A stretch of DNA of 64,000 bases from an uncultured Flavobacteriaceae bacterium (GTDB lineage: Bacteria > Bacteroidota > Bacteroidia > Flavobacteriales > Flavobacteriaceae): NCBI GenBank assembly GCA_947487895.1, contig CANKYF010000008.1:62001-126000 (forward strand). The letters run 5' to 3'. Below are positions 40,034-46,296 of the stretch, piece after piece. A program made the translations under genes and the position numbers. Position 1 is the first letter of the stretch; every line of letters begins with the position of its first letter. Below the pieces are notes generated by a model. The model searched no databases and was not told the DNA's origin. It saw nothing but the letters and a program-made list of their open reading frames with translations.

Positions 40034-40085
40034 TATTCAAATAATCACAATGTAATTAGTATTAGAAAGTTTATTTTCAATAATC

Positions 40086-40127
40086 GTACAGAATGTTCTG
40101 TTTTTTTATTTTTTAATATTATATTTG
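40086..40127 (+). promoter_or_regulatory. tetR promoter with overlapping operator 1
   Basis: The operator is GTACAGAA-TG-TTCTGTTT (40086-40103), overlapping TCTG at the -33 position (40097-40100). Nineteen bases later is a perfect -7 box TATATTTG (40120-40127). The ATG at 40132 is so close that the mRNA may be leaderless. The 20-base string AATCGTACAGAATGTTCTGT also occurs before the next gene. Confidence 0.7.
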
Positions 40128-40131
40128 AAAT

Positions 40132-40698
40132 ATGAATTCCGAAAAACCGCGAGAGCGAATATTGATAACTGCCAAAAGGTTATTCTACCATCAGGGTTAC
40201 AGCCTAACAGGTATTAACCAGATTATAAAAGAATCTAAAGTTTCTAAAGACACGCTTTATAGATACTTTAATGGAAAGGAAGAATTGTTAATAGAATATA
40301 TAAAAGTGGCAAGAAATGAATGGTTTGAAAAATTCAATCAATATTTAAGTTTTTCAAAAGATAATGCATCTAAGATTTTATCTACTTTCGACTTTTTAAA
40401 AGAAAGTATGGTAAGTAATGAATTTAAAGGCTGTCGATTTTTAAATTTACTATCAGATATTGAGACTATAAATGAAAAGGCTCGTATTGAAATTGTTGCA
40501 CATAAGAATCAATTAAAAGAAATATTTATTTCGCTATTTATGGGGCTAAAAAATACAAATAAGTCAAATAAAGAGCTTAAGGAATTGGCTGAAGTTGTAT
40601 ATATCTTATTTGAGGGTACAATAGCAGAGTGTAAGGTGTTTAAAGATTTATGGCCCGTTGCTAAGTCTAAAAAGATGGTTAGTAAACTGATAAGCTAG
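40132..40698 (+). CDS. TetR/AcrR family transcriptional regulator
   Basis: A 188-residue repressor. The N-terminal HTH is ILITAKRLFYHQGYSLTGINQIIKESKVSKDTLYRYFNGKEELLIEYI (quoted in part: GYSLTGINQIIKESKVSKDT), about residues 10-55. The C-terminal ligand domain is divergent, of the YcdC/AcrR-type length. Identical palindromic operators lie at its own promoter and just before the downstream DinB gene, so it should repress itself and the dinB-cupin genes. The inducer is unknown. Confidence 0.93.
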   Translation: MNSEKPRERILITAKRLFYHQGYSLTGINQIIKESKVSKDTLYRYFNGKEELLIEYIKVARNEWFEKFNQYLSFSKDNASKILSTFDFLKESMVSNEFKGCRFLNLLSDIETINEKARIEIVAHKNQLKEIFISLFMGLKNTNKSNKELKELAEVVYILFEGTIAECKVFKDLWPVAKSKKMVSKLIS

Positions 40699-40720
40699 AA
40701 AAAAATTTTATTTATAAATC

Positions 40721-40738
40721 GTACAGAATGTTCTGTAC
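40721..40738 (+). promoter_or_regulatory. TetR operator 2 upstream of the DinB gene
   Basis: GTACAGAATGTTCTGTAC: perfect 8-bp arms around a 2-bp centre. It matches operator 1 over 20 bases (AATCGTACAGAATGTTCTGT) and lies 14 bases before the DinB ATG, where a bound repressor would block transcription. Confidence 0.8.
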
Positions 40739-40752
40739 TTAAATTAATTAAT

Positions 40753-41208
40753 ATGGATTATACATTTAAAACTTGGAAAAGAAGCAGAGAAATTATTACT
40801 AATATTCTAGAAAGTTATAGTGAGGAACAACTTATTAAAATACCAAAGGGTTTCAATAACAATTTAATATGGAATATTGGACATATAATAGCTGTTAATC
40901 AAAAATTGATTTATAAATCATCTAATTCTCCTATTATAATTCCTGAGGCATTGTTGAATCAATATAACACGGGTACATTTCCTAATCTAGATGAAGATCG
41001 AGAGAACATACCAAAAATTAAGAAATTATTAGCCTATACAGTAGAAAAAAGTATATACGATTACCATCATTCAAATTTTAATAAGTTTAATGAATTGATT
41101 ACAGGTACAGGTTTTCATATATCAAGTATTGAAGAGGCTTTCTCTTTTAACAATTACCATGAAGCGCTTCATATAGGTTTAATGCTAAACATAAAGAAAT
41201 TTATTTAA
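40753..41208 (+). CDS. DinB family protein
   Basis: A 151-residue four-helix-bundle protein of the DinB/YfiT superfamily. The three metal-binding histidines are probably those in WNIGHIIAVNQ (about residue 42) and the pair in NYHEALHIGLML (about 137-141). The family includes thiol S-transferases and detoxification enzymes using mycothiol or bacillithiol; the exact reaction is unknown. Operator 2 precedes it and the cupin gene follows after 17 bases, so TetR control and a stress or detoxification role are inferred. Confidence 0.88.
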   Translation: MDYTFKTWKRSREIITNILESYSEEQLIKIPKGFNNNLIWNIGHIIAVNQKLIYKSSNSPIIIPEALLNQYNTGTFPNLDEDRENIPKIKKLLAYTVEKSIYDYHHSNFNKFNELITGTGFHISSIEEAFSFNNYHEALHIGLMLNIKKFI

Positions 41209-41225
41209 GCGTTAGAATTAAGAAG

Positions 41226-41789
41226 ATGCTATCTATAAAACCAACGTTTTTTACTCATAAAACAGATAAAAAGCAATCATCACTGTTAGTGTTACCTCCT
41301 AATAATACTTTTATATCTAATTTTAATAAACAAAGTGATTTGTATATAATAGAAGGCTGTGTAATTATGTATGATAGTATTATTCTTGAAACGGGTACTT
41401 ACATTAGTATAAAAAACTTTGAGATTACCAATAATACTAATGAAAATGCCATGATTTTTATATATGAAGAACCAAAAAGGCATGATGGTTTAGAATTAAT
41501 CTTAAAAAAGTCAGATCAAAAATGGCATACAAATAGTATAAATGGATTAAAACAGACTATACTAAGGAATGTAGATCACTCTTTATATTTAGTTTCTTTT
41601 GCAAAAGGAACAAAGATTCCTTTTCATAGACATAAAAAAGGAGAAGAAATTTTTGTGCTTCAAGGTGAACTTTGGAATCAATCTAGTAGCCTAAAAGAAG
41701 GGGAATGGATTAGAATGTTACCCAATATTGGACATGCACCATACGCAAAGAGAGAAACATTAATTCTATTGAGAAATGGACATTTATAA
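41226..41789 (+). CDS. Cupin domain protein, ChrR-like
   Basis: A 187-residue protein with two cupin-like halves. The C-terminal half carries the metal-binding motif IPFHRHKKGEEIFVLQGELW (two histidines plus a glutamate) and a later histidine in MLPNIGHAPYAKR. This is the ChrR-like cupin pattern, although the protein has no N-terminal anti-sigma domain. The N-terminal half (LYIIEGCVIMYDS) resembles a second, degenerate cupin. It is co-directional with the DinB and TetR genes. A dioxygenase or metal-binding sensor role is possible. Confidence 0.86.
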   Translation: MLSIKPTFFTHKTDKKQSSLLVLPPNNTFISNFNKQSDLYIIEGCVIMYDSIILETGTYISIKNFEITNNTNENAMIFIYEEPKRHDGLELILKKSDQKWHTNSINGLKQTILRNVDHSLYLVSFAKGTKIPFHRHKKGEEIFVLQGELWNQSSSLKEGEWIRMLPNIGHAPYAKRETLILLRNGHL

Positions 41790-41897
41790 TTGTTTATTAA
41801 AAATCTACTCAAAAATTATCTAAAATATATTGAATAATTAGGTGAAAGAAAGTTGAAAAGGTTGAGCGGTAATATCCATTATCATAACTCATTTAAT

Positions 41898-42584
41898 TTA
41901 ACACTTTTTTGGTTTAAAATACTGCATTAAAACCAAGGGTAATAAAATCAAAGAAAAAGCATAAATACTATCTTCAATAGGTATAGTAAATAATCTGAAG
42001 TTCAAATTTTCGGTGTTATTATACCATACTATTTCGTTATCAATAAAACTACCAGTAAGTATACCATTCACAATAAAAAAAGGAATAAGCATTACCAAGA
42101 ATGTTATATAAAATTCACTAAGAAGCTTAAGATGTTTTTTAAGAGAAACAAACACTAATATTAGTGCTAGAGTAAAGTTGATTAAGGTATACCATTTGCT
42201 AAAATTATATATTAAAATGATTGCAAACAATAATATTAAAATATAACTAATCAATTTAGTAACTCGTTTTGATAATTTTAAATTCGGGAAATAATGTAAT
42301 AGTGCGTAGTGCATAAAAATACAAGCATATGGAATACAAATAAAGAATAACCATTCTTCTAATGGTAAATGAAAAATGGTTGTACCCAAAAGATAATTAT
42401 TGTTAAATCCCCAAAAACCATTAATAGTGAAAATAATATCCCATGGAATAAAAACAAGCATAGATAAAAAGATGCTTATAAAAAGAGGTTTCCAAAGTTG
42501 ATAAAATTTTAGTTTAGGATGAAAACTAAATAAAAGAGGAATACTTAAAGACCCTAAATTTAAAATAAGGTATAAGTAATTCAT
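41898..42584 (-). CDS. Lycopene cyclase domain protein (CrtYcd-type)
   Basis: A 228-residue integral membrane protein with about seven hydrophobic segments. Two heterodimer-type lycopene cyclase motifs are fused in one chain: IPWDIIFTINGFWGFNNNYLL with FHLPLEEWLFF (about residues 46-80), and RLFTIPIEDSIYAFSLILLP near the C-terminus. The family cyclises the ends of lycopene to beta rings. It directly abuts crtZ with no gap and is the last gene of the crt operon. It would supply beta-carotene for CrtZ. Confidence 0.9.
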   Translation of the reverse strand: MNYLYLILNLGSLSIPLLFSFHPKLKFYQLWKPLFISIFLSMLVFIPWDIIFTINGFWGFNNNYLLGTTIFHLPLEEWLFFICIPYACIFMHYALLHYFPNLKLSKRVTKLISYILILLFAIILIYNFSKWYTLINFTLALILVFVSLKKHLKLLSEFYITFLVMLIPFFIVNGILTGSFIDNEIVWYNNTENLNFRLFTIPIEDSIYAFSLILLPLVLMQYFKPKKC

Positions 42585-43037
42585 TTAACTTTTCTTGAAA
42601 TATTTAAAAGGAACCATAAGCATTCCAAAACATTCGCCATCTCCTTTGCCTAAATGTTTATGGTGCATTTTGTGCGCTCTTCTAACACCCTTTGCGTACC
42701 AATTGTTAGCATTTCTAAACAACTTGAAACGTTGATGAATAAAGATATCGTGAACAATAAAATAAGAAATACCATAAACGAGAATACCCAAGCCTATAGG
42801 TAAACCAATCCATAAACCATTATATTTCCAAAGTAAAAAGAAACCAATACTAATAATGGCGTAGAAAATGAAAAAGAAATCATTGCGTTCAAACCAACTG
42901 TCGTGATCTTTTTTATGGTGGTCTTTATGTAAATTCCATAAAAAACCATGCATTACGTATTTATGAGTAAACCAAGCCATAAATTCCATAAAGCAAAATG
43001 TGCTTAAAAAAACAAATATCCAAAGGAGTGTTTGCAT
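42585..43037 (-). CDS. crtZ: Beta-carotene hydroxylase
   Basis: A 150-residue di-iron membrane hydroxylase that converts beta-carotene to zeaxanthin through cryptoxanthin. The histidine boxes are visible: HKYVMHG, LHKDHHKKDHDSWFE, the HDIFIH segment, and RRAHKMHHKHLG. Four membrane-spanning stretches surround them. It lies between crtB (9-base gap) and the cyclase gene (0 bases). Confidence 0.95.
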   Translation of the reverse strand: MQTLLWIFVFLSTFCFMEFMAWFTHKYVMHGFLWNLHKDHHKKDHDSWFERNDFFFIFYAIISIGFFLLWKYNGLWIGLPIGLGILVYGISYFIVHDIFIHQRFKLFRNANNWYAKGVRRAHKMHHKHLGKGDGECFGMLMVPFKYFKKS

Positions 43038-43046
43038 AATTCTAAA

Positions 43047-43886
43047 TTACAGTAAATTTAGTTGATATTTCACATAGCTACGCATTAAGAGTTCAATTTT
43101 TTTAGGGTTTGATACTCTTATTCTGGTGCTTTTAATTTTTAGAGCAGGTGTCTTCTTTAATTTTTTGAGCAGTTGCCTGTAGTATCTGTATGCTGTAAAT
43201 ACACCAAATTGTGCATCTATTGGCAATTTTTTAATACCACTAAGACCTTTGTCAAAATCAGCTTCAATATCATCTATAATAGCTTGTTTAGAAGCTTCAT
43301 TTAAATTATCTAAATCAGCATTAGGAAAATAACTTCTGTTTAAGTCATCATAGTCAGCTTTTAAATCTCTTAAGAAGTTTACTTTTTGAAAAGCAGAACC
43401 TAAAGACATAGCTGTGTCTTTTAAATTTTCATATTTCTCTTCATCACCTTTTACAAATACTTTTAAGCACATTAAACCCACAACATCTGCAGATCCATAA
43501 ATATAATCTTTATATTCTTGGGTGGTTAAATAGTCGGTTTTATGCAAATCTAATCGCATACTTTTCATAAAAGCGTCTACTAGCGCTTTATCAATATTAT
43601 ATTTGTGATACGTGTACTGAAAAGCATTTATAATAGGATTTAAGCTTATTTTTTCTTGTAGTGCTTGTTCTAAATCTTCAGTAAGTTCGTTAAATAGAGC
43701 TTCTTTTTTATAATCATGAAATGAGTCAACAATTTCATCGGCTAATCTTACAAAGCCATAGATATTATAGATATCATTTCTTATAGAATTCGATAGCATT
43801 TTTGTTGCTAATGAAAACGATGTGCTGTACGTTTTAGTTACTGTTTTACTGCAGCTGTATGATACTGTATCAAATAATTGTTTCAT
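43047..43886 (-). CDS. crtB: Phytoene synthase
   Basis: Joins two geranylgeranyl diphosphates to phytoene. The 279-residue protein carries both Asp-rich motifs that bind the substrate diphosphates through magnesium: VRLADEIVDSFHD (about residues 45-58) and FLRDLKADYDDLNRSYFP (about 165-185), plus YIYGSADVVGLMCLKVF. It overlaps crtI by four bases (ATGA type), so translation is coupled. There is no crtE in the window. Confidence 0.95.
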   Translation of the reverse strand: MKQLFDTVSYSCSKTVTKTYSTSFSLATKMLSNSIRNDIYNIYGFVRLADEIVDSFHDYKKEALFNELTEDLEQALQEKISLNPIINAFQYTYHKYNIDKALVDAFMKSMRLDLHKTDYLTTQEYKDYIYGSADVVGLMCLKVFVKGDEEKYENLKDTAMSLGSAFQKVNFLRDLKADYDDLNRSYFPNADLDNLNEASKQAIIDDIEADFDKGLSGIKKLPIDAQFGVFTAYRYYRQLLKKLKKTPALKIKSTRIRVSNPKKIELLMRSYVKYQLNLL

Positions 43887-45349
43887 AATTGATGATGTTT
43901 TATTATTAACTCTGATACTAATTTTCCTGAAATTAATGAAGGAGGAACCCCAGGTCCAGGTACAGATAACTGTCCTGTAAAATACAAATTTTTTACCTTT
44001 TTACTTTTAAGTTTGGGTCGTAAAAAAGCTGTTTGGGTTAATGTATTTGCCATGCCATAGGCATTACCCTTATATGAATTGTAATCTTTTATAAAATCGT
44101 TCACACAAAAAGACTCTTTAAATAATATATTATTGATTACTGTTTGCGAGGTAACTTTCTCAAATCTGTTAATTATTTTATTAAAATAAGCTTCTCTAAG
44201 TTCTTTAGTATCTTCTAATCCAGGTGCTAACGGGATTAAGAATATACCAGCTTCCTTATTTTCTGGAGCTGTACTGCTATCTGTTTTACTTGGAAAACTT
44301 GCATAAAACAGAGGATCTTCTGGCCATTTAGGATTATCGTAAATAGCATTGGCATGTACATCGAAGTCTACATCAAAGAAGAGCGTATGATGCTCTACAT
44401 TTTCAATTTTCTTATCAAAACCAACATAGAATAATAGTGAAGATGGAGCAAAGGTTTTTTTCTCCCAGTAGGCTTCAGAATATTGCCTGTATGCTTTATC
44501 TAAAAGCGTTTCTGTATGGTGATAGTCTGCGCCACTTAACACAATATCAGCGTTATATGTAGTGTTATTACATATAACGCTTTGTGCTCTTCCTTTTTCA
44601 ATATTTATTTTGTCAACTGGCGAGTCTGTTATAATATTTACACCTAATTCTTTTGCTAAATGTTCCATAGCAAGAATAACCTGGTACATGCCTTTTTTAG
44701 GGTGAAAAGTGCCAAGACCAAAGTCGGCATAATTCATGAAGTTATAGAAAGAAGGTGTGTTACTAGGTTTAGCACCAAGAAATAATACAGGGAATTCTAG
44801 GATTTTAGCTAATTTATCATTTTTAAAAGCCTTTCTAACGTCTTTTTTTACACTACTAAAAAATTGGTTGAGCCTTTTCATGGTTGTTAGAGAAACTAAC
44901 TCTAAAGGAGAAACTCCTGGGTTATAAACCAAGTCTTTAATAGCAATATTATAGTTGTCTTTTGCTTTATTAATAAATTTCATTAATTGAATAGAACTGC
45001 CTTTCTCTTCAGCTTCAAATGCCTCACAAATTTTTTCAAGTGAGTCTTCAATAGTTATGTAATCATTTTTACCAAAGTAGACGCTATACGCAGGATTTAA
45101 CTTATCTAACTGGTAATAATCTGAAGGTTTTTTATTGAAGTCTGAAAAGAAGCGTTCAAAAACATCTGGCATCCAATACCATGTTGGTCCTATATCAAAA
45201 GTGAAGCCATCTCTTTTTAATTGTCTAGCTCTACCACCTATGGTTTTATTCTTCTCTATTAAAGTTATATCGTATCCAGCTTTAGCTAAATAGCAAGAAG
45301 CTGCTAATGATGAGAAACCAGAACCTATTATAATTATTGAGTGTTTCAT
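43883..45349 (-). CDS. crtI: Phytoene desaturase (CrtI-type)
   Basis: FAD-dependent desaturase that makes lycopene from phytoene. I chose the ATG at 45349 (MKHSIIIIGSGFSSLAASC, 488 residues); the longer track start adds a hydrophobic MFNIFLFLLNK not expected in the family. The FAD-binding dinucleotide fold is at the N-terminus (IIIGSGFSSLAA, TLIEKN, GGRARQLKRDGFTFDIGP), and the C-terminal signature is YFTGQLSVPGPGVPPSLISGKL. It lies 47 bases after the regulator gene. Confidence 0.95.
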   Translation of the reverse strand: MKHSIIIIGSGFSSLAASCYLAKAGYDITLIEKNKTIGGRARQLKRDGFTFDIGPTWYWMPDVFERFFSDFNKKPSDYYQLDKLNPAYSVYFGKNDYITIEDSLEKICEAFEAEEKGSSIQLMKFINKAKDNYNIAIKDLVYNPGVSPLELVSLTTMKRLNQFFSSVKKDVRKAFKNDKLAKILEFPVLFLGAKPSNTPSFYNFMNYADFGLGTFHPKKGMYQVILAMEHLAKELGVNIITDSPVDKINIEKGRAQSVICNNTTYNADIVLSGADYHHTETLLDKAYRQYSEAYWEKKTFAPSSLLFYVGFDKKIENVEHHTLFFDVDFDVHANAIYDNPKWPEDPLFYASFPSKTDSSTAPENKEAGIFLIPLAPGLEDTKELREAYFNKIINRFEKVTSQTVINNILFKESFCVNDFIKDYNSYKGNAYGMANTLTQTAFLRPKLKSKKVKNLYFTGQLSVPGPGVPPSLISGKLVSELIIKHHQL

Positions 45350-45396
45350 TTTGTTTAACAAAAATAAAAAAATATTAAACAAAAAGAAATTTGAAC

Positions 45397-46296
45397 TTAT
45401 AAATTATTTGTTAAATCTTCTATATTTCTATAAATGGTAATGTTTTCAGGGAGTTCGATATTTTCTATATCGAATAATTTAGGACCTAATAATACCAATT
45501 CGTTGGAAGTATTTTCGATAAGTAATTTACTAAAATTATTAATATAATCTGGAATTTTTTCAACTTCTGGATTTACAGTGAAATAGGAAACAAAAGTAAT
45601 TTCTTTAAAGAATTCTAATACACTTGTTAAACTTTCTAAAGGAACACTTTCACCCAGAAAAATAGTATGATAACCTTTACTTCTTAATTGGTAGTTAATA
45701 AACAACAATCCAATATCATGGATTTCATTTTCAGGAAGGTATAAAATATAGGTTTTAGAAACAGGTTTAGGCTCTAAACTTTGAAGTCTTTCTATATTTA
45801 ATAAAATCTTTTGCTTAATATGTACAGAAAGAAAATGCTCATGAGCAGGTGTAATAGTATTTGTTTGCCAAAGTATGCCAATTTCATTTAGCAAAGGACG
45901 AAATACAGTATGGAAAATATCACTAAACGTTTTATTTTCAATAAGGTTGTTATATGTGTTATAAAATAAAACCTGATCAAAATTAATCATGGAAATTTTA
46001 AACGCATTTATAGCATGATCTTCTACTTTAGAACGGGATGCAATCTCTCTTACTTTAATAGGAATTTCTTCTTCTGCTAAGTTGGCAATTTTTGAAATTT
46101 TATAGCCATTATTGTTAAGAAAAGAAATATTTAAAAGCTTTTGTAAGCTAATAACACTGTAATTTCTAATATTTGTATCAGTTCTATTTGGTTCCAATAA
46201 ATTATAGCGCTTCTCCCATATTCTAATAGTGTGCGCTTTAATTCCTGTAAGATTTTCTAGATCTTTTATGCTGAAATTTACCTGTATGTTGTTCAT
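45397..46296 (-). CDS. MerR family regulator with B12-binding domain (CarH/LitR-like)
   Basis: A 299-residue regulator: an N-terminal MerR winged HTH (IKDLENLTGIKAHTIRIWEKRY, about residues 10-31), a helical B12-binding cap, and a cobalamin-binding Rossmann domain. The key CarH features are present: WQTNTITPAHEH gives W-x9-EH in the cap (about residue 145), and NEIHDIGLLF gives E-x-H-x-x-G with the lower histidine ligand of cobalt. CarH proteins bind DNA as tetramers with adenosylcobalamin in the dark and release it in light. The gene is upstream of crtI in the same direction. Light control of the crt operon is a strong inference. Confidence 0.92.
   Translation of the reverse strand: MNNIQVNFSIKDLENLTGIKAHTIRIWEKRYNLLEPNRTDTNIRNYSVISLQKLLNISFLNNNGYKISKIANLAEEEIPIKVREIASRSKVEDHAINAFKISMINFDQVLFYNTYNNLIENKTFSDIFHTVFRPLLNEIGILWQTNTITPAHEHFLSVHIKQKILLNIERLQSLEPKPVSKTYILYLPENEIHDIGLLFINYQLRSKGYHTIFLGESVPLESLTSVLEFFKEITFVSYFTVNPEVEKIPDYINNFSKLLIENTSNELVLLGPKLFDIENIELPENITIYRNIEDLTNNL

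Follow-up and report, generated by a model that had tools for sequence, protein, structure and literature searches.

Autoregulated repressors that are translated from leaderless messages are an old theme, known from lambda cI and from tetR of Tn1721 (PMC3017554). The acuR gene of Rhodobacter sphaeroides, already described as a leaderless member of this theme next to these two, heads the operon acuR-acuI-dddL with its start codon at +1, and AcuR represses this operon, and thereby itself, via a single reported inverted repeat over the promoter with AGAC/GTCT arms, TAATAGAC-N6-GTCTATTA, as found by 5'RACE and operator mutants (PMC3017554). In Bacillus subtilis, QdoR/YxaF of the YxaF/QdoR-LmrA system controls qdoI as well as itself via operators at both promoters (PMC8481877). 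NemR, an electrophile- and bleach-sensing TetR of E. coli, possesses the sensor residues Cys106 and Lys175 (PMC7464077), and the bacillithiol transferase BstA of S. aureus a metal triad of H67, H160, and H164 (PMC5815605).

The locus studied here is situated in a window of 64 kb, which is the whole stretch of DNA analysed, and comprises, all on the forward strand, a tetR gene (40132..40698, 188 aa), a dinB-like gene (40753..41208, 151 aa), and a cupin gene (41226..41789, 187 aa); the latter two are separated by 17 nt and are presumably co-transcribed. It is similar to acuR-acuI-dddL in its TetR-first order, in an inverted repeat with arms of the AGAC/GTCT kind over the promoter and, as predicted for the window, in autoregulation and in a tetR message that is leaderless, its first base being the A of the start codon. 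There are, however, clear differences: the acuR operon contains neither DinB nor cupin, whereas the window has no adjacent acuI reductase, the next genes coding for the DinB-fold protein and the cupin, and it possesses two operators. The YxaF/QdoR-LmrA system resembles the window in the combination of a regulator with a dioxygenase and in operators at the regulator and enzyme promoters, but the window cupin is ChrR-like by family match, and the likeness stays below membership at the sequence level.

The three genes are carried by a 1.86-kb insertion (40034..41897) between the genes for a 2-hydroxyacid dehydrogenase and a lycopene cyclase. In six congeners, these flanking genes nearly abut and the trio is absent, such that the insertion is clean. 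It overlaps the stretch with the lowest GC content of the window (26.6% vs. 31.3%); flanking repeats were not seen at its ends, and a donor was not found. The simplest reading is a recent, lineage-specific horizontal gain. A conserved trio was rejected as a candidate, since none of 80 DinB loci has this cupin nearby and the two with TetR genes have other ones. The TetR-DinB-cupin unit of the initial annotation hence stands as one unit with two matching operators, but as a lineage-specific insertion and not as a conserved trio. Adjoining the insertion, a carotenoid-type cluster is found on the minus strand (41898-46296), with genes for the lycopene cyclase, a fatty-acid/carotene hydroxylase-like protein, phytoene synthase- and desaturase-like proteins, and a MerR-type regulator.

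The 20-base string AATCGTACAGAATGTTCTGT occurs exactly twice in the window, in the tetR promoter (40082-40101) and shortly 5' of dinB (40717-40736), and no further copy exists elsewhere in the 64 kb even at three mismatches. In 100 dinucleotide shuffles of the window, 0.03 matches were expected by chance and two matches were obtained in none, which together with the genome search rules out a chance origin of the repeat. The operator at the tetR promoter, O1 (GTACAGAATGTTCTGTTT, 40086..40103), spans -46 to -29 relative to the tetR ATG, covering the -33 region; it ends with CTGTTT, and its perfect arms, ACAGAA/TTCTGT, have a length of 6 bp. The second operator between tetR and dinB, O2 (GTACAGAATGTTCTGTAC, 40721..40738), constitutes a perfect 18-bp palindrome with arms of 8 bp; 14 bp separate it from the dinB ATG (40753), and the spacing between O1 and O2 is 635 bp. 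The pair is confirmed as observed in the initial annotation, which had given both places of the string, the overlap of O1 with the -33 position, and the arms and distance of O2. The regions around O1 and O2 (40066-40119 and 40701-40754) form a direct repeat of 54 nt with 76% identity, longer than the operator alone.

In the whole genome (4.39 Mb in 46 contigs), O1 and O2 are the only matches at up to two mismatches except for a single site (L003) that falls within a coding gene; a core-like site with three mismatches (L007) is also situated within a coding gene. The motif is thus not scattered over the genome, an outcome that the initial annotation had named as speaking against a specific operator. 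Since the search revealed no other convincing copy, O1 and O2 are predicted to constitute a local, not a global, regulon. As is characteristic of TetR-family regulators, palindromic sites are present at the sequence level in both the regulator's own and the target promoter region, and they are conserved in relatives.

Concerning these relatives, 400 Flavobacteriaceae genomes were searched with the TetR, of which 63 contained a homologue (E<=1e-20), and 69 homologous loci from Flavobacteriaceae and allies were examined, including the window and a few loci from other families. A site was defined as ACAGA-N4-TCTGT with at most one mismatch, within 130 bp 5' or 150 bp 3' of tetR. An equivalent of O1 is present in 49 of the 69 loci, one of O2 in 44, and both in 39; these loci are related by ancestry, such that the counts do not represent independent events, although their intergenic flanks are mostly diverged. 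By a rough estimate from base composition, a single 160-bp stretch holds such a site with a probability of about 0.005. The operator pair is also found in Hymenobacter, on a Nostoc plasmid, and in other Bacteroidia. Contrary to the earlier remark that few TetR regulons show their operators so plainly, plain paired operators are, judged by these sites, the rule in this TetR subfamily and not rare.

O2 is present where a co-directional next gene is set apart from tetR, whereas it is absent where this gene abuts tetR with gaps of 2-11 nt (L013, L143, L161, L166; also L197 and L198) and where a co-directional next gene is missing (L156, L168, L173, L174, L176, and L179, with O1 only). The organization of the window is shared by the flavobacterial TetR-DUF1348 and TetR-SDR units (L012, L014-L016, L018, L127-L171), which possess a homologous TetR, TAHHTTTG-N4-ATG, an O1 usually beginning at about -41 to -44, and an O2 before the next gene, usually 8-67 nt 5' of the DUF1348 or SDR gene. 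Their cargo is DUF1348/hydrolase or SDR, in contrast to DinB-cupin in the window. In DUF1348-type relatives, extra exact or near-exact copies of ACAGACTTGTCTGT occur further downstream (L014:2919-2932, L016:595-608, L138, L139, L141, L142, L146, L160); in L014 and L016 they are situated inside the coding sequence of an alpha/beta hydrolase, where they encode T-D-L-S-V. These copies may be either coincidental, arising from the codons used, or a third operator located within the gene.

Despite the shared layout, the operator itself differs. The consensus of the homologous loci is ACAGAC-NN-GTCTGT, with rare single changes, whereas the inner C is replaced by A at both sites of the window, the only one of the 69 loci with ACAGAA..TTCTGT at both. 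An exact canonical site ACAGAC-NN-GTCTGT does not exist in the window's genome, and another close pair of TACAGAANNTTCTGT sites was not found among the matches listed for the 400 family genomes. The window TetR carries substitutions at otherwise near-invariant helix-turn-helix positions (N24S, A35S, A38S, A40D, H45Y, K/R47N, and S48G). S38, D40, R44, and Y45 are insufficient as the sole cause of the shift, as L136 possesses all four, yet has ACAGAC sites; S24, N47, and G48 are left as unique candidate residues.

The start of tetR fits the layout of a leaderless gene: the -7 element TATATTTG (40120..40127, forward strand; consensus TAHHTTTG) is followed by 4 nt and by the ATG at 40132, whose A is the predicted transcription start. 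In 42 of the 69 members, 3-5 nt separate the end of TAHHTTTG from the tetR start, the distance being exactly 4 nt in 36; five of the 42 (L018, L134, L145, L167, L178) are softer cases, for which the called start had to be replaced by a later one in the same frame. The same arrangement is found in 8 of 598 ordinary ORFs in Bacteroidota loci, in one of 40 ORFs of the window, and in one of 22 other TetR genes. In F. johnsoniae, start sites lie 4-5 nt after a TAnnTTTG-type box and 87% of the leaders are longer than 10 nt (PMC6847099); in F. psychrophilum, 5.5% of the mRNAs are leaderless (PMC9723704). On the strength of TATATTTG-N4-ATG and of the family counts, the tetR mRNA probably starts at its first codon, in line with the initial suggestion that it may be leaderless. 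The window thereby shows the layout of the dual-operator leaderless subfamily of Flavobacteriaceae, i.e., O1 in the -40s, TAHHTTTG 3-5 nt before the start, and O2 after tetR, but not its operator core ACAGAC-NN-GTCTGT. While a leaderless start of this kind has precedents, a description of its spread over such a subfamily of Bacteroidota was not found in the searchable literature.

The tetR product is a member of the TetR family by its N-terminal helix-turn-helix (PF00440, 52 bits vs. a cut-off of 24). Among the curated families, AcuR and CurR are the closest to it, both far under the cut-off, with 56.3 vs. 247 bits for AcuR (NF051457), i.e., below equivalog level; the best PDB match is YxaF (1sgm, E 3e-12), and the solved relatives include YxaF and NemR, the latter with only 37 bits. 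By domain, curated-family, and PDB matches, it is a predicted repressor of the AcuR/NemR/YxaF-like subfamily. In the tree, it falls within the DUF1348-type clade, but its branch is long (1.32), because of which its exact position is unsure. As the regulator is so divergent and its operator unlike those of all homologues, a function conserved with its relatives would be assumed by analogy only.

Concerning the signal, Cys101 is retained in 62 of 68 homologues and aligned with the sensor Cys106 of NemR, which suggests an electrophile or an oxidant as inducer. Lys168 is aligned with Lys175 of NemR, and the NemR-type Cys-Lys switch would be speculative in the window TetR, since a lysine at this position occurs in only 2 of 68 subfamily members; Cys167 and Lys168 are nearly private to it. 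The other cysteines of NemR are absent, and the gene neighbours differ.

The name DinB denotes here the DinB/YfiT S-transferase-like fold and not, as it might be read from the initial annotation, a DNA polymerase. This fold covers several activities. The window protein possesses a DinB_2 domain (Pfam, 59 bits) and a three-histidine metal site, His44/His136/His140, which is invariant in 40 homologues and spaced by 92 and 4 residues, compared to 93 and 4 in BstA. The AF2 model (pLDDT 95) has BstA (5wk0) as its top PDB match, with a modest agreement (TM 0.6, 16% identity). Equally to the BstA/YfiT bacillithiol S-transferases, the protein combines a helical-bundle fold with a three-His site containing HxxxH, and bacillithiol synthesis genes are present in the window's genome (bshA, 568 bits; bshC, 465 bits). 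From fold, metal site, and these genes, it is predicted that the protein probably conjugates bacillithiol. A second DinB-like paralogue with 38% identity exists in the same genome (G000:C16:97417-97866).

The cupin is a bicupin according to an alignment with a Pseudomonas plasmid protein. Its N-terminal half is degenerate, whereas the C-terminal half (Cupin_7, 49 bits; ChrR, 3o14) retains an intact HxH-E-H metal motif. The ChrR match is limited to this half (residues 96-177, 29 vs. 124.5 bits); a zinc anti-sigma domain is lacking and the insertion contains no sigma gene, such that the protein is not a ChrR anti-sigma factor accompanying an ECF sigma gene. The structure prediction reached a pLDDT of 30, and a further metal-dependent step as the role of the protein is a guess. 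Almost no relatives were found in 301 and 395 genomes, and none in viral contigs. On two Pseudomonas plasmids (L192, L193), a ChrR-like bicupin gene overlaps an unrelated TetR gene and is followed by SDR, in L193 also by OsmC; by gene content, this is another, plasmid-borne TetR-cupin cassette, and its TetR was rejected as a close relative of the window's (22% over 65 aa).

The locus is a real and well-supported regulatory unit, legible in the DNA as two sites, their family-wide conservation, a leaderless layout, metal motifs, and an insertion, from which we infer binding, repression, inducer class, and enzyme activities. We consider it probable that it represents a self-contained, horizontally gained repressor cassette controlling tetR and dinB-cupin via O1 and O2, with induction by a reactive molecule. 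A TetR dimer would bind O1 over the -33 region and repress its own leaderless gene, a step that is well founded by analogy, in promoter anatomy and the AcuR precedent, and would bind O2 and repress the dinB-cupin pair. A reactive small molecule, i.e., an electrophile or an oxidant, would modify or bind TetR, plausibly at Cys101 with Lys168 nearby, whereupon TetR would leave both operators and dinB-cupin would be expressed. DinB would then probably transfer bacillithiol to the toxic compound, and the cupin would probably perform its metal-dependent step; detoxification, as initially proposed, is the likeliest theme. O2 may act either at a separate dinB promoter or by blocking read-through; no good TAnnTTTG match is found near it in the window (best 4/6), and an A-tract/ATTT element 5' of it (40702..40713, forward strand) is a weak candidate for the -7 element of a second promoter, taken from the profile of the relatives.

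TetR-family proteins are usually dimers, and dimers are poor at DNA looping. This argues against looping over 635 bp as one of the auxiliary roles, besides a roadblock or an increased local repressor concentration, that O2 would have if the three genes formed a single operon in which O1 alone sets initiation. Such an operon is a reasonable possibility, though somewhat short of probable: a promoter-like -7 box is lacking near O2, the genes are tightly spaced, and the AcuR operon of Rhodobacter has no promoter in the acuR-acuI gap (PMC3017554), but relatives whose next gene directly adjoins tetR lack O2, as expected if O2 marks a separate start, and the aligned AAAAATTT element, which the relatives' profile shows to be conserved some 13 bp 5' of O2, suggests a second promoter. 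That O2 is merely a non-functional copy of O1 from a duplication of the promoter region, for which the 54-nt direct repeat could be cited, is highly improbable, as the palindrome is more perfect in O2 than in O1 and 44 of 69 homologous loci have retained an O2 at this position although the flanks, except for the ATTT element, have diverged. Concerning the signal, TetR might instead sense a degradable aromatic compound or acid, with the cupin as main enzyme of a catabolic switch, as in YxaF/QdoR with quercetin dioxygenase or AcuR with acrylate. The best PDB and NCBIfam matches (YxaF and AcuR, respectively), the operators of qdoI and its regulator, and the bicupin architecture agree with this; we regard it as unlikely, however, since every family match falls far short of its cut-off (56 of 247 bits), the match of the cupin is to the ChrR domain and not to a quercetinase, and the insertion contains no transporter or other catabolic gene.

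To our knowledge, TetR operators are little mapped in Bacteroidota. The locus is partly known in kind, namely as an AcuR-like leaderless repressor; new are the family-wide dual-operator layout and the natural change of the operator code. A predicted leaderless start in 61% of the members, compared to about 1% of ordinary ORFs, carries the theme of leaderless repressors to another phylum and provides a clean model of how leaderless mRNAs are translated in this phylum, which lacks Shine-Dalgarno initiation. Some 50 loci provide an operator code that is directly testable, and the natural specificity change from inner C to A could be traced to a few helix residues. More tentatively, Bacteroidota may possess a family of portable TetR cassettes that travel as a whole, comprising a repressor gene with a conserved leaderless start, a constant arrangement of promoter and operator, and another operator before exchangeable cargo, the window being one with both cargo and operator code changed. 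If this is true, the changed operator code would insulate the window cassette from sister repressors. The TetR/operator pair may also serve as an orthogonal repressor-operator for biosensors in Bacteroidota.
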